Assembly (NCBI GenBank): GCA_026419775.2
Contig: JAOPGA020001428.1
Location: 1-25,665, forward strand
DNA: 25,665 bases
Direction: 5' to 3'
Origin: Acrasis kona
Taxonomy: Eukaryota; Heterolobosea; Eutetramitea; Acrasida; Acrasidae
A model generated the notes under the pieces. The model ran no database searches, was not told where the DNA came from, and saw nothing but the letters and a program-made list of their open reading frames with translations. Position 1 is the first letter of the stretch, and each line of letters begins with the position of its first letter. This document shows, in pieces, positions 20,913 through 25,665 of this stretch. Position numbers and translations under genes: made by a program.

Positions 20913-22034
20913 TTAGTGTGGAGTATTTGAAGGTTGGTTCGACACAAATCTGTGATTGCAATTTGGACAGGTATGTTTTTGTTGTATATTTTGTAAAGAT
21001 GACGTTGACAAGTCATCTATTTTTTGCCGGAGATGGTCCAATACATTCAACAAGTCAACGTGTCGTTGTCGACTCGTGTCTTGTTCCTTGCCCTTCTTAC
21101 GATTATAGATACTGACCTCCTCCATATATGCATTTCCGATGATGGACACGAATAACGAAAAGAACACAAGTGCCATGATGCCGAATGCAATGGTGAGTAT
21201 TTTACCAAGAACTGTTTTTGGAGCGACGTCTCCATAACCTATGGTGGTCATTGTAACCGCGGCAAACCACATGCTCTCGGTGATGCTGCCGAAATATTCT
21301 GGCTGCCTTTCCCTCTCTGCAAAATACAAGAGCATTGACATTGTAAGCCACGAAACAATAACAACAATCGAACTGGACATGACATCTCTGTACTGCCTTT
21401 TTATTAATCTTCTAATCATGTTTATTGTCCTACTTTTGCTACCCAACCTGAGCAATCTCAACATTCTAAAGAATGATAGAGCACTCGCGTGTGAGTCATC
21501 GAGTTGAATTTTACCTTCTAGGTAGAATTGCTTTGACATCAAGATGATGGAAATTAGACTTGGGAGTATGGATAAAAAGTCAATGATTGCTCTTAATGAA
21601 AACAGAAAGCGTAATCTTCCAAAAACAGGTCCAAATCTTTTGTATTTGATGCTTTCGGTACATGTTATTACTTTGAGCGCGTATTCAACCATGAATACCT
21701 CGGTTGAAAAGAGTCTAAATATTTGATATGATATGAGGAAGAATGGGTGGGAGAAGAAGTTGTAGACTTCTGGTTCAGAATCGATGACCGTGTGTATTAC
21801 TGAAATTATAATTAAACACGATATAAAGTTATTGAATATTTTTCCGATTAGTGTTGGTTTGAACTCTTGTGATAATAAATTCCAAATGAAAAATTTTGCT
21901 CTGTTGTACGATGATATTTGATCTTCTGGCTTTTGAAACATCAGAGTATTTAGCGTTGGTATCGACATAGATCTTCTCAAGGCCTCTTGTATTGGTCCTG
22001 AACTACCAGTAGTAAGGTCTAACGATGCCCTCAT
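20913..22034 (-). CDS. Voltage-gated K+ channel (six-transmembrane, Kv/KCNQ-like)
   Basis: From ATG 22034 (MRASLDLTTGSSGP) the protein is 373 aa. S1 is FISCLIIISVIHTVI, S2 FSTEVFMVEYALKVI, S3 AIIDFLSILPSLISIILM, S4 FFRMLRLLRLGSKSRTINMI (regularly spaced Arg, the voltage sensor), S5 SSIVVIVSWLTMSMLLYFAE, the pore AAVTMTTIGYGDVAP (GYGD K+ filter) and S6 IAFGIMALVFFSLFVSIIG. S6 lacks the PVP bend of Shaker channels, which is closer to KCNQ or prokaryotic Kv types. The C terminus has a predicted coiled coil (LLNVLDHLRQKIDDLS) and ends with a CPNC dyad. The frame is open 45 codons further upstream to an ATG at 22169, but that extension is encoded by a mobile-element end and is unlikely to be native. 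Confidence 0.9.
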   Translation of the reverse strand: MRASLDLTTGSSGPIQEALRRSMSIPTLNTLMFQKPEDQISSYNRAKFFIWNLLSQEFKPTLIGKIFNNFISCLIIISVIHTVIDSEPEVYNFFSHPFFLISYQIFRLFSTEVFMVEYALKVITCTESIKYKRFGPVFGRLRFLFSLRAIIDFLSILPSLISIILMSKQFYLEGKIQLDDSHASALSFFRMLRLLRLGSKSRTINMIRRLIKRQYRDVMSSSIVVIVSWLTMSMLLYFAERERQPEYFGSITESMWFAAVTMTTIGYGDVAPKTVLGKILTIAFGIMALVFFSLFVSIIGNAYMEEVSIYNRKKGKEQDTSRQRHVDLLNVLDHLRQKIDDLSTSSLQNIQQKHTCPNCNHRFVSNQPSNTPH

Positions 22035-22111
22035 TTTGTAAGGCAATGGAGTAAGTTGACCATCCACGACGTAGACTACGATGAACACTACCAACGGTAC
22101 ACTATCATGTG

Positions 22112-22240
22112 ACCACACAAGTAAGTCTACTTTTACAGCTACTGGGAGCCGAACCAGTATGCTTACCATATAAGGAGCCGAACTTATATGAAGCTAGCGG
22201 GAGCCGAACCGTCTAGAAATGTTGGGAGCCGAACCAACAT
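22112..22240. repeat. Left terminal inverted repeat with four hairpins
   Basis: Hairpins: H1 22140-22159 (arms TACTGG/CCAGTA), H2 22167-22190 (CATATAAG/CTTATATG), H3 22194-22216 (CTAGCGG/CCGTCTAG, one bulged T) and H4 22219-22240 (ATGTTGG/CCAACAT). All share loop GAGCCGAA. Arm sequences are unrelated beyond the closing G-C. An AATCATCATC run follows H4. Confidence 0.9.
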
Positions 22241-22371
22241 AATCATCATCATATTTTACATTTACTATAACCTTATAAAACATAACTAATATACCAACCG
22301 TTACAATTAATGTAACACCATCTACATTCTATCTACCATACAAAGATCTATCTACCAAAATATATCTACCA

Positions 22372-22409
22372 AGTGGGCTCGTCGCACGGCTACGCCGTCG
22401 CTCCTCCTT
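22372..22409. repeat. Left subterminal inverted repeat (38 bp)
   Basis: GC-rich segment starting AAGTGGGCTCGTCGCAC and ending CGTCGCTCCTCCT. It matches the reverse complement of 23758-23795 with one mismatch (G/A at the middle). It contains an internal ACGGC-TAC-GCCGT hairpin. It is strikingly GC-rich against the AT-rich flanks. Preceding it, TATCTACCA or close variants recur at about 22330, 22350 and 22362. The remaining non-coding part, 22410-22768, is AT-rich leader sequence in which I see nothing else. Confidence 0.88.
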
Positions 22410-22768
22410 TGATAACTAAAAACCACAATCCATTACATTTAAGAAATTAAAGAACTTTATTACCCTACATGTATTCCGATTTATAAAGGTTGGAAATGAT
22501 ACTACAACCTTAAATTTACCTTCATAATCGATTTTCATTTGTCCAGAGATGTTAATCACTCTGATGTGGAAAGTGCTAAAATCTAAAACAGAGTTGTAAT
22601 AGACCAGAAATATATATAATAAAATGCTACTTGCTTTACTTCACGATAATGAAGTTAAAAGCGGCCATCTGGTCAATAATGCGTTCATACTCTTGTTTAC
22701 AATAACAATATATTTAGTATAAAAAATAGAACGGCTTATTCTTCGCTGATAAAAAATATAAAATTAAC

Positions 22769-23446
22769 ATGTCACACAAAAGAAAACAAGACAATACATC
22801 AACGACAGTAACCTCTACTGATAACAAGAGAAGGAAGCATAACATTGAGGACATCTTTAACTCCTGGGCTGACCGAACAACCAAAAACCTTGAAGCAAAC
22901 CACAAAAGATACAAGTGGCCCCTACCAGTTTACAATGAAGACGAAGTCAAATACTGGAAAGCGTTAGTACTATCAAACTATGATAACAAAACAATTCCAA
23001 GACTGTTATTGACATCAGGAACGCATAAGTACGGGGTACCAATAAACACTCCAAAATATAAAAACGCTGGTCACCTACAAATAGATACAAACATAAACCA
23101 CAGGCTAAATAAATCGGCTGCGATTCTATCAGGTTGCGAATTCTATGATCAACACATTGCCTCCAAAACTCTGAGAACACCAACGTTTGAAATGTCCAAA
23201 ATAAACAGGATATGCCGTCTTGGTGAAGACATTTATGACATCAAATCAAAATCAATCATCACAGACACAAGAATTCTAAACTGGATAAAAGTTATAGAAG
23301 AAATACACCCTCTGCAACCACAAACATTGGAAACCATCAAACATAAGTACTCATTGTACATGATATTCCAACCGTTAAAGGAAAAGAAACAAGCATTCTA
23401 CATTGGCTTTGGAGATGGCCGTTCTCACAACTTTCTGTCGAAATGA
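22769..23446 (+). CDS. Element-encoded hypothetical protein, 225 aa
   Basis: The sole clear ORF of the hairpin-ended element, from ATG 22769 (preceded by AATATAAAATTAAC) to TGA. The N-terminal ~30 residues are basic and Ser/Thr-rich (MSHKRKQDNTS..., NKRRKHN), like a nuclear localisation signal. A globular part follows with DIFNSWADRTTKN, RYKWPLPVYNEDEVKYWKAL, GHLQIDTNINHRLNKSAAIL and SLYMIFQPLKEKKQAFYIGF. No catalytic triad, zinc finger or membrane helix is evident. Codons are A-ending and the ORF is intronless, unlike most neighbours. It could bind the hairpins or be a cargo gene; both are guesses. Confidence 0.7.
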   Translation: MSHKRKQDNTSTTVTSTDNKRRKHNIEDIFNSWADRTTKNLEANHKRYKWPLPVYNEDEVKYWKALVLSNYDNKTIPRLLLTSGTHKYGVPINTPKYKNAGHLQIDTNINHRLNKSAAILSGCEFYDQHIASKTLRTPTFEMSKINRICRLGEDIYDIKSKSIITDTRILNWIKVIEEIHPLQPQTLETIKHKYSLYMIFQPLKEKKQAFYIGFGDGRSHNFLSK

Positions 23447-23487
23447 GAACAAAAAGCATTATATTAATGTACATTAAAGTTCTGGTC

Positions 23488-23680
23488 TTGGTTGCATTTG
23501 TCTTGCTCTAAATGATTATTCATTGCATCAATTCCCTTCTGAGAGAACAATGTCATTTTATGGTTGTATTTGTCTTGCTGCTATATCAAAGATAAGGTAT
23601 AGTTACCCTGAATTATCTTGGTTATATGTCTTGCTCTAACTGAGAGTGCTCATTCTATTCTTTTGGTTGTGTATGTATTG
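23488..23680 (+). repeat. Four degenerate copies of a TTGGTTGYATTTGTCTTGCT motif
   Basis: Copies start near 23488, 23560, 23618 and 23663. The first three share TGGTT..AT.TGTCTTGCT, and the first and third end in CTAA. The fourth is weaker (TTGGTTGTGTATGTATTG). Spacing shrinks from 73 to 46. They lie just after the ORF stop, so they could be 3'-UTR or internal binding repeats of the element. The remaining interval to 23757 has no gene. Confidence 0.55.
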
Positions 23681-23757
23681 ATATCATGGTAAATCTTGAG
23701 GTTAGGGATGATTGGTTGATGCTTTTGAGTTTTCTGGCTCTTGATAAGTAATGTTAT

Positions 23758-23795
23758 AGGAGGAGCGACGGCGTAGTCGTGCGACGAGCCCACTT
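23758..23795. repeat. Right subterminal inverted repeat (38 bp)
   Basis: Begins AGGAGGAGCGACGGCGTAG and ends GCGACGAGCCCACTT. It is the inverted partner of 22372-22409 with one mismatch. On the plus strand its internal hairpin keeps a G-T wobble in place of the G-C pair of the left copy. Confidence 0.88.
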
Positions 23796-23890
23796 TTAAG
23801 AATTACTTGACACTAAATGGTCTTGTATATGGTAAATGATGTATGGTCACTTAAATAAAGTTATCAATTATCAGTAATAATAATAANATT

Positions 23891-24027
23891 GTTGGTTCGG
23901 CTCCCAACTTATGAATAATTGTTTCTAGACGGTTCGGCTCCCGCTAGCTTCGTATAAGTTCGGCTCCTTATACGGTAAGCATACTGGTTCGGCTCCCAGT
24001 AGCTGTAAAAGTATACTTACTGTGGTG
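23891..24027. repeat. Right terminal inverted repeat with four hairpins
   Basis: Hairpins in mirror order: H4 23891-23908 (GTTGG/CCAAC), H3 23925-23947 (CTAGACGG/CCGCTAG), H2 23951-23974 (CGTATAAG/CTTATACG) and H1 23982-24001 (TACTGG/CCAGTA). All have loop TTCGGCTC. Between H4 and H3 there are about 14 extra bases relative to the left end. H2 differs from the left H2 by a paired change. An ambiguous base sits just inside at 23887. Confidence 0.9.
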
Positions 24028-24387
24028 TATTGTGAAACCATATATACAGGGTCTCATAGCCGTCCCGTTGGGCCGGCGCATAGTTACTTCCACTAACTTA
24101 GTATGATGTCATATACTCTACGATGTATGGTTGACTCCATTTCCCCTTTGTAATGATTTGGAACCTTTGTGAATTTATTAAAGAATGTACAACGCAGGTA
24201 TTGATCAAATATTGCGATATGTAGCAAAAAACGGTCAGATATGTAAGATATATGAATAACAGTTGTGTGATAGGCAATCTCACGTTCTTGGAGTTTTCAC
24301 AATATTTATTAAGGTTGAGTTCCTCGAACTCTATATGGTCTCAGATGGTTACAATAAACCATCTTTACCACACTCCACCTGCCAACA
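24028..24387 (-). mobile_element. Candidate 3' LTR of the gypsy-type element
   Basis: On the minus strand, about 235 bases after the integrase stop, TGTTGGCAGGTGGAGTGTGG begins at 24387. Reading on, the stretch ends near 24022-24028 with ATACACCACA. TG...CA ends with near-inverted tips (TGTTGG and CCACA) and an internal TATATAT-type box (about 24041) fit an LTR of roughly 365 bp. The other LTR is outside the window, so this cannot be confirmed. No gene is seen in 24028-24621. Confidence 0.35.
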
Positions 24388-24621: not shown

Positions 24622-25665
24622 TTATTCATCTACATAGTCATCATCATTCTGGTCATCGACCCAGATATCGCTCTTTGACGACCTTTCCATCGCTTGTTGA
24701 TGATCTACGTCTAATAGATCTTCCCCTTTCCTCAATTTTGCTATTTTGAGGAAGTTAGCTGGAGCAGTAAGCGTTTCTACTTGACTTTCGATTTCGTAAA
24801 TGCCATGTACGTCAACTGCTTTGACTCGGAACGGTCCTACATATCTCACTTGAGATTTTTTCTTTGTAGGAATCTTCCACATAACAATATCTCCCACCGA
24901 AAATACCTTGCATCTCTTCTTGTATTTCATATTATTGAAATTCTTTAACTTGACTTTCCATATCGCTGGAATAACATCTCTGTTAAACGTGGTCCAGAAT
25001 TCTAGCATTCTCATATGCGCATTCTTCTCATCCATCACAAGACCTACCGACGACTCATCATAAAAAGGCGTACGGCCAAACATCAAACCGAATGGTGAAG
25101 ATTTCAATCTAGAGTGCACTCTTGCATTCATTTCCATCATGACGGCAGGAACATACATATCCCAATACTTGATGTCTCCAGAAAGATCGATAGCTTTCTT
25201 CACTAATGTATCGTAGACGGTTCTGTTGTTTCTCTCAACTTTCGCATTAGCATGGTGATCATAGGCAACAGTGAACTTGTGACTCACAGTTCCTAGCTTC
25301 TCAATCACCTTTACCACCTTGTTGTCGAATTCCTTTCCTTGGTCTGTCTTAAACCACTTCGGAAAACCGAATGATGTGAATACATCCAACAAGGATTTAG
25401 CTATATCTATAGCGCTTTTAGATGGGCATACACGTATCCATGTGAAGCCTGAGAAGTCATCTACTACATCTAGAACGACTTTATTACCTTGGATACTCGT
25501 TGGCATTTCTAGTACATCTATGCTGACATACTGACACGGTCCAGTCATCTTTGGCGCCCTTACTGGACTATAAAACACATTATGATTGTTCATCAGTCTG
25601 CAAACTTTGCAACTATTACAGTAATCTATGCATCTCTGTCTTAGTCCTGGCATGTCCCCGCGTTC
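24622..25665 (-). CDS. Ty3/gypsy-type polyprotein, integrase end (partial)
   Basis: The frame enters from beyond the right edge (reading ERGDMPGLRQRC...) and ends at TAA 24622-24624, so only the C-terminal end of a Pol polyprotein is present. Visible parts: the CNSCKVC half of the HHCC zinc site, then the integrase catalytic core with the D-D-E triad in YVSIDVLEMP, WFKTDQGKEF and HHANAKVERNNRT, and finally a C-terminal beta-rich module VGDIVMWKIP and VRYVGPFRVKAVDVHGIYEI, as in gypsy/Ty3 integrases. A short acidic tail follows (DDQNDDDYVDE). The ORF is intact within the window, so the copy may be young. It would insert element cDNA into the genome. Confidence 0.93.
   Translation of the reverse strand, partial: ERGDMPGLRQRCIDYCNSCKVCRLMNNHNVFYSPVRAPKMTGPCQYVSIDVLEMPTSIQGNKVVLDVVDDFSGFTWIRVCPSKSAIDIAKSLLDVFTSFGFPKWFKTDQGKEFDNKVVKVIEKLGTVSHKFTVAYDHHANAKVERNNRTVYDTLVKKAIDLSGDIKYWDMYVPAVMMEMNARVHSRLKSSPFGLMFGRTPFYDESSVGLVMDEKNAHMRMLEFWTTFNRDVIPAIWKVKLKNFNNMKYKKRCKVFSVGDIVMWKIPTKKKSQVRYVGPFRVKAVDVHGIYEIESQVETLTAPANFLKIAKLRKGEDLLDVDHQQAMERSSKSDIWVDDQNDDDYVDE

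Follow-up and report, generated by a model that had tools for sequence, protein, structure and literature searches.

What kind of element carries, at both of its ends, an array of hairpins that present one loop on different stems? The question is raised by the window, the whole 25,665-nt stretch of Acrasis kona DNA analyzed here, in which the initial annotation described eight hairpins with a common 8-nt loop. All eight are present where they were placed, and beyond chance expectation. On the plus strand, the GAGCCGAA loops start at 22146, 22175, 22201 and 22226, and on the minus strand, they start at 23896, 23933, 23959 and 23988. At the left end, on the plus strand, H1 (22137–22163) has the arms AGC + TACTGG and CCAGTA + bulged T + GCT around the loop GAGCCGAA at 22146–22153; H2 (22167–22190) has the arms CATATAAG and CTTATATG around 22175–22182; H3 (22194–22216) has CTAG + CGG and CCG + bulged T + CTAG around 22201–22208; and H4 (22219–22240) has ATGTTGG and CCAACAT around 22226–22233. 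At the right end, on the minus strand, H4 (23891–23908, GTTGG/CCAAC) has its loop at 23896–23903, H3 (23925–23947, with one unpaired base) at 23933–23940, H2 (23951–23974) at 23959–23966 and H1 (23978–24004) at 23988–23995. The left and right arrays are copies of each other in inverted orientation (97% over 100 nt), and therefore they display four hairpin types seen twice, not eight independent ones. The stems had been described as 5–8 bp long and unrelated to one another. The arms are indeed complementary, but H1 and H3 each contain a one-base bulge in the minimum free energy (MFE) fold: H1 pairs over 6 bp, skips one base and pairs over another 3 bp, and H3 has 3 bp and 4 bp separated by a single unpaired base on one arm. 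In both left-end hairpins, the unpaired base sits on the 3' arm. The sequences of the four stems do differ, but the two pairs nearest the loop are conserved in part: all eight hairpins close the loop with a G-C pair, and in six of them these two pairs read GG/CC.

The MFE fold of the left end (22120–22245) consists of H1 to H4 and one small extra hairpin, with RNA and DNA parameters alike. The RNA fold has −40.7 kcal/mol (z −4.43) and the DNA fold −19.9 (z −3.54), and 0 of 200 shuffles folded as well in either case. Counting only exact loops on stems of at least 4 bp without a bulge, each window end has three hairpins sharing one loop; of 200 dinucleotide shuffles per end, none gave three and one gave two. 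The core GGGARCMGAACC occurs 89 times in the genome (searched as 37.35 Mb in 1021 contigs, where the window is contig C740), against 4 occurrences of a reversed control. A search for tRNA found none. Known RNA families in Rfam gave no match in window 22000–24200 or in the relative loci L052, L053, L054, L067, L070 and L071.

The left array matches 27 places in the genome. We collected 38 distinct arm pairs from the fetched loci, requiring [AG]G/C[CT] beside the loop and a neighboring unit within 150 nt, a rule that leaves out hairpins whose first two pairs are broken, and allowing one bulge, in shuffles as well. Beyond the inner two pairs, these units have 131 bp, compared with a mean of 32.0 and a maximum of 70 when arms are shuffled (0 of 5000 as high). 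Sliding the arms by 1, 2 or 3 positions leaves only 6, 9 and 18 outer pairs. In a looser set of 139 arm pairs that includes background, 21 have at least 4 bp (shuffled mean 2.4, maximum 9). An alignment of 13 rows, from which the other left-array matches were left out as fragmentary or near-duplicate, has 93.6% of 346 cells paired, against 19–42% for slid structures. Both sides have changed in 14 of its cells, against 5.1 for shuffles, none of 500 being as high. Of five covariation measures on these 13 rows, two were not above shuffles: pairs changed on both sides were as numerous in 161 of 500 shuffles, and further pair types in 500 of 500. The initial annotation had read the hairpins as a structure under selection and not as a simple repeat, and the excess of pairing over arm shuffles, together with compensatory changes in H1 and H2, supports that view. 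A simple tandem repeat finds no support, given the covariation.

Another repeat explanation is ordinary turnover, in which the hairpins of the ends descend by duplication from an ancestral one and have no structural function. Duplication did occur, as stretches of up to 19 nt are 79–89% alike among H1, H3 and H4. Units have also been exchanged: L013, L014 and L023 contain chimeric hairpins with arms from two different hairpins, which deletions between repeated loops are expected to give. Further hairpins have decayed in L003, L010 and L011. Arms that are no longer complementary, the finding named in advance as counting against a selected structure, do occur, with just 0–1 outer pairs in 9 of the 38 units. 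Overall pairing nevertheless still exceeds shuffles; without selection the arms should drift independently, yet the observed pairing is above all 5000 arm shuffles, and the design is kept in other families (see below). We therefore regard turnover as very unlikely; the hairpins are real and appear, from their patterns of change, to be kept by selection.

A compensatory change within the window is in H2, which has CATATAAG/CTTATATG at the left end and CGTATAAG/CTTATACG at the right end. Among other copies, the left-type L002, L003 and L007 carry A, and the right-type L006, L008 and L009 carry G; the exception is L010, a right-type copy with a deletion at H2, which carries A. Such separate left and right versions in most copies suggest that each end is copied in full and not regenerated from the other. 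In the GAACAGAA relatives, both arms of H2 are replaced throughout, and two rows have TATTGG/CCAATA as H1. Loop and stem switch together between two subfamilies, GAGCCGAA versus GAACAGAA/GAACCGAA. Stem mismatches include both C-A and G-U, and therefore they do not tell RNA from DNA. An explanation confined to RNA would be that the 5' loops, GAGCCGAA, kiss the 3' loops, UUCGGCUC, and so join the RNA ends for packaging or strand transfer. The loop sets of the two arrays are complementary in sequence and RNA folding is strong, as this would call for. However, inverted repeats give loop complementarity automatically, and ends this nearly identical could pair along their whole length. Moreover, most aligned left-type and right-type copies keep different H2 hairpins (L010 excepted), and neither end seems to be routinely copied from the other. 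We consider loop kissing improbable.

How far does the element extend? The initial annotation had it span 22112–24027 as a free-standing TIR element with the hairpins as its ends. Neither point is supported. Homology between copies runs from 22034 to 24154, and a 1.9-kb element ending at the hairpins is rejected because that homology continues outward. From copy homology and 18 listed ends compared by eye, the whole non-autonomous element occupies about 22042–24147 on the plus strand, between TTGTAA copies at 22036–22041 and 24148–24153, and the hairpins are subterminal. The listed ends matched two end motifs, were restricted to distinct flanks and were assigned to left or right by eye. In the clade of the window element, exact TTGTAA in direct orientation flanks seven of eight listed left ends and all eight listed right ends; the eighth left end (C213) has TTGTTAA. 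The hexamer is probably a target duplication, although TTGTAA is inverted, not direct, at the two ends of C843 and C575. Inward of the arrays lies a second subterminal inverted repeat, found by repeat search and copy homology, with its left arm (GTGGGCTCGTCGCACGGCTACGCCGTCGCTCC) at 22371–22408 and its right arm at 23758–23795; motifs like it were seen by eye in other families. A further motif, GGCCATCTGGTCA, at 22663–22675 on the plus strand, has an inverted partner after the reverse transcriptase (RT) in C666 (L054 4134), and this partner is not intact in the window copy.

The window element contains a truncated ORF A at 22769–23446 on the plus strand, with 225 codons and a stop. Among 23 other genome matches to it, none extends beyond residue 218 and 13 end at 215–218, which is where ORF A of C666 continues. 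The nucleotide alignments place an internal-deletion junction at 23413/23414: the L029 match ends at 23414 and the L006 match starts at 23413. C666 aligns with the window as far as 23414 and resumes at 23413; the roughly 3.1 kb that it has in between contains the rest of A, an oppositely oriented ORF B, a gag-like ORF and an RT interrupted by one stop. Judged from these alignments, the window copy is an internally deleted, non-autonomous, inverted-repeat element, a derivative of a longer RT element. Both arrays are retained in deleted copies (the window and C213). Upstream of A, C666 has no match to the window, and therefore none of the loci read is a complete copy of the subfamily to which the window element belongs. 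The sequence TCTCAGCACTGAGACT occurs upstream of ORF A in C666 (L054 170–230), where C666 departs from the window.

The longer relatives show what the deleted copy would have lost. In C666, B is convergent with A. In C770 (L067) and C9 (L070), the A, B, gag-like and RT frames are all open, in the same order and orientation. The gag-like ORF is so named by its position, and Pfam finds no gag domain in it. The C-terminal part of A is homologous to B (97.5%, E 6.4e-12). Five divergent members of B have invariant Y, Y/G, R, E and N at GIY-YIG positions; in A, the R at its GIY-YIG position is not invariant. Against a GIY-YIG profile of 74 sequences (73 of 80 viral loci, those with stops or short being dropped, plus one sequence of this genome), B scores 28.5 with E 0.0004 at an HHsuite probability of only 35.3%; the best of 100 column-permuted decoys reaches 19.1 and an RT control 16.4. 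A alone scores 15.5, below decoys of up to 20.5. Tests by hhalign with three to four GIY-YIG sequences were weak (E 0.016–0.072; RT negative control 0.43). Neither Pfam nor NCBIfam calls a GIY-YIG domain in A or B, and a genome scan with PF01541 finds three places, none in A or B, one of which is in C88, about 5 kb from an array. A PDB profile search returned nothing for B and one sperm protein (E 0.22) for A. Weak Pfam and NCBIfam matches were set aside, such as the one between A of C770 and spore photoproduct lyase (E 0.001). B is therefore called GIY-YIG-like with modest support, and A is taken to be nuclease-like through its homology to B only.

Each of the five RTs scanned contains RVT_1, at E 5.3e-16 to 4.9e-21. 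Of 206 PDB matches to the RT profile, the 60 listed have names that point to retroviral, Ty3 or pararetroviral enzymes, apart from one called just 'Polymerase'. One RT also matches a group II intron RT model weakly (E 4e-4). By these profile matches the RT appears to be of the LTR/retroviral type. Among 5.8 billion protein sequences, B has no match at E ≤ 0.01 and a single RT none at 1e-5. The RT profile has two matches there (E 1.7e-15 and 9.2e-11, 22–25% identity), one of them a Retrovirus polyprotein. In viral contigs, scans with the RT profile (28 pattern stretches) and with an HNH-like ORF described below (1 stretch) confirmed no relative.

The hairpin design recurs in other families with other loops. 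C88, with core GAACAGAA, has six units of 3–6 bp. C770 and C9 are divergent copies that repeat the design with other cores: GTCGTAC in C770, in seven units with 3–6 outer pairs, and GAATGCGTGATAGGGCCT in C9, in six units of 5–11 bp, of which three have the exact core and the other three differ from it at one to three loop positions. C575 has the core AGCGGAAACCCAGC, with 4–6 bp in five of six units and one loop change in two. C708, with core GATCAGAA, is a weaker case, with four units and one end seen. C575, C9, C770 and C708 together have 109 paired bases, compared with a mean of 59.4 for shuffles within families (0 of 5000 as high). Taken singly, shuffles equal or exceed the observed pairing 22 times in 5000 for C770, 21 for C9, 72 for C575 and 1284 for C708, and therefore C708 alone is not evidence. 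In the arrays compared, the loop is nearly constant and the stems covary within an array, and the loop changes between families. Beside the GTCGTAC palindromes of C770, at about 1540–1740 on the reverse strand of L067, there are also tandem GCARGGACAAGCC...TGC hairpins, and a GCAGGGACAGGCCCTGC in L071 of C843 resembles the GCARGGACAAGCC of these units.

The putative nuclease module varies as well. C575 has one GIY-YIG-like ORF, so judged by eye, oriented divergently from gag and RT. In C843, a 504-aa ORF replaces the GIY-YIG-like ORFs; we take it to be HNH-like from its motif as seen by eye, and it has no Pfam, NCBIfam or PDB match. RT and HNH-like matches lie divergently on the same contig in C274, C283, C625, C828 and C898, and on one strand, about 5 kb apart, in C875. 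C843 and C671 have related RTs and no array by a census of exact cores, which also missed known arrays: one version missed the L067 arrays and the right end of L070, and another missed L078 and L053 and gave a spurious core, AAAAGCA, in L067. At L071 2741–6806, the HNH-like ORF of the related C843 element looks double by eye (29 genome matches including itself). A further RT frame of this type (L071 1–2333) is enclosed by inverted repeats, 392 and 57 nt long, whose 100% complementarity suggests a recent copy or an assembly fold-back.

We asked which known class could accommodate such an element. It resembles DIRS elements in its inverted terminal repeats, its gag-like ORF with an LTR-type RT, an internal inverted motif and the lack of a visible DDE integrase. 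It differs in its GIY-YIG-like ORFs and hairpin arrays, and in that RNase H and tyrosine recombinase were not detected. The DIRS definition compared here is that of an excerpt of PMC3783388, and of the DIRS traits the inverted terminal repeats are present. PF00589, the tyrosine recombinase, has 61 genome matches, none inside the elements of C740, C666, C770, C9, C575, C843, C671 and C213. For RNase H, searched with PF00075, 150 of 182 genome candidates were scored, and none lies inside those eight elements or in the RT frames; a match in C666 (8311–8553) is outside the element. The DNA methyltransferase of DIRS proper has no Pfam match in the ORFs scanned, nor did these ORFs show an integrase domain. 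GGCCATCTGGTCA is inverted inside both ends, and may correspond to the internal complementary region of DIRS. As to LTR elements, searches for direct and for inverted repeats in the window, C9 and C843 found end repeats that are inverted and none that are long and direct; in C770 the search covered inverted repeats. With no RNase H, tyrosine recombinase, integrase or LTR detected in the elements examined, the DIRS and LTR definitions tested fail.

Penelope-like elements and Terminons have an RT in company with a GIY-YIG(-like) endonuclease, to which the GIY-YIG-like ORFs found here may correspond. Terminons are described in excerpts of PMC6431247 and PMC5718144 as having stand-alone GIY-YIG-like and coiled-coil ORFs, and the excerpt of PMC5718144 places GIY-YIG in eukaryotic transposable elements within Penelope-like elements. 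The present element differs in that its RT ranks with retroviral/LTR structures among the PDB matches listed, its nuclease-like ORFs are separate and its terminal repeats are inverted. The RT of Penelope-like elements is related to telomerase RT. The hammerhead ribozyme, a Penelope trait, has no Rfam match in window 22000–24200 and six relative loci. Helitron2 has hairpins at both ends with compensatory changes, according to an excerpt of PMC3627910. It differs in having one hairpin per end, no array with an invariant loop, and RepHel instead of an RT and GIY-YIG-like ORFs; no Rep-helicase domain was found in the ORFs scanned. The ends of the IS200/IS605 family have subterminal hairpins with unpaired bases and are read as single strands. 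The subterminal hairpins with unpaired bases are a likeness, but those elements are bacterial and have an HUH transposase and no RT, and no HUH domain was found among the ORFs scanned here.

Our preferred reading, to which we give a probability of roughly 0.6 on sequence comparisons, is that the arrays are cis-acting hairpins of a TIR-bounded retroelement, read in single-stranded form by an element protein. The loop would be the recognized part, with the stem merely presenting it. Acting in single-stranded form, whether in the element RNA, in its cDNA or in an extruded cruciform, the array would be a multivalent platform on which the protein docks. We guess that the reader is most likely B or A, and less likely the gag-like protein or the RT. 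Once docked, the protein would mark both ends to be packaged, reverse-transcribed or processed; the TTGTAA target would be opened by a nuclease for the element to insert, and deleted copies with both ends could be mobilized in trans. Alternatively, the arrays might be duplex DNA sites for a dimeric transposase or nuclease, like the subterminal repeats of many DNA transposons, the stems being half-sites. Certain GIY-YIG restriction enzymes do recognize palindromes. Several sites per end, subterminal and within inverted repeats, would suit such binding. Half-sites should be conserved, however, whereas the arms vary between hairpins and families and it is the loop, asymmetric in sequence, that is constant within a family. 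This asymmetry counts for reading as a hairpin because a two-fold DNA site would not need it. We think duplex sites unlikely.

A bolder proposal, which we advance tentatively and at less than even odds, is that these elements form a new order of retrotransposons, bounded by TIRs, with a gag-like ORF, an LTR-type RT without RNase H, an exchangeable nuclease module facing away from gag (a GIY-YIG-like pair, a single GIY-YIG-like or an HNH-like ORF) and hairpin arrays whose loops form a code specific to each family, which the nuclease of the element itself would read. In a literature search in which subscription papers were thinly covered, we found no retroelement combining hairpin-array TIR ends, an RT and GIY-YIG-like ORFs. 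A constant loop on covarying stems occurs here in several versions in one genome, tied to a retroelement in which the usual integration enzymes looked for were not found. If true, this would be another route by which reverse-transcribing elements mark their ends and choose targets, and it would provide paired nuclease and loop sets whose specificity is directly testable.

Other coding frames adjoin the window element on both sides. On the left, the start of a minus-strand frame at 20913–22033 adjoins the element's end. It is likely a voltage-gated potassium channel gene, with a TIGYGD filter that we take to be the potassium channel motif. On the right, an open minus-strand frame at 24622–25665 resembles, by eye, a Ty3/gypsy-type integrase.
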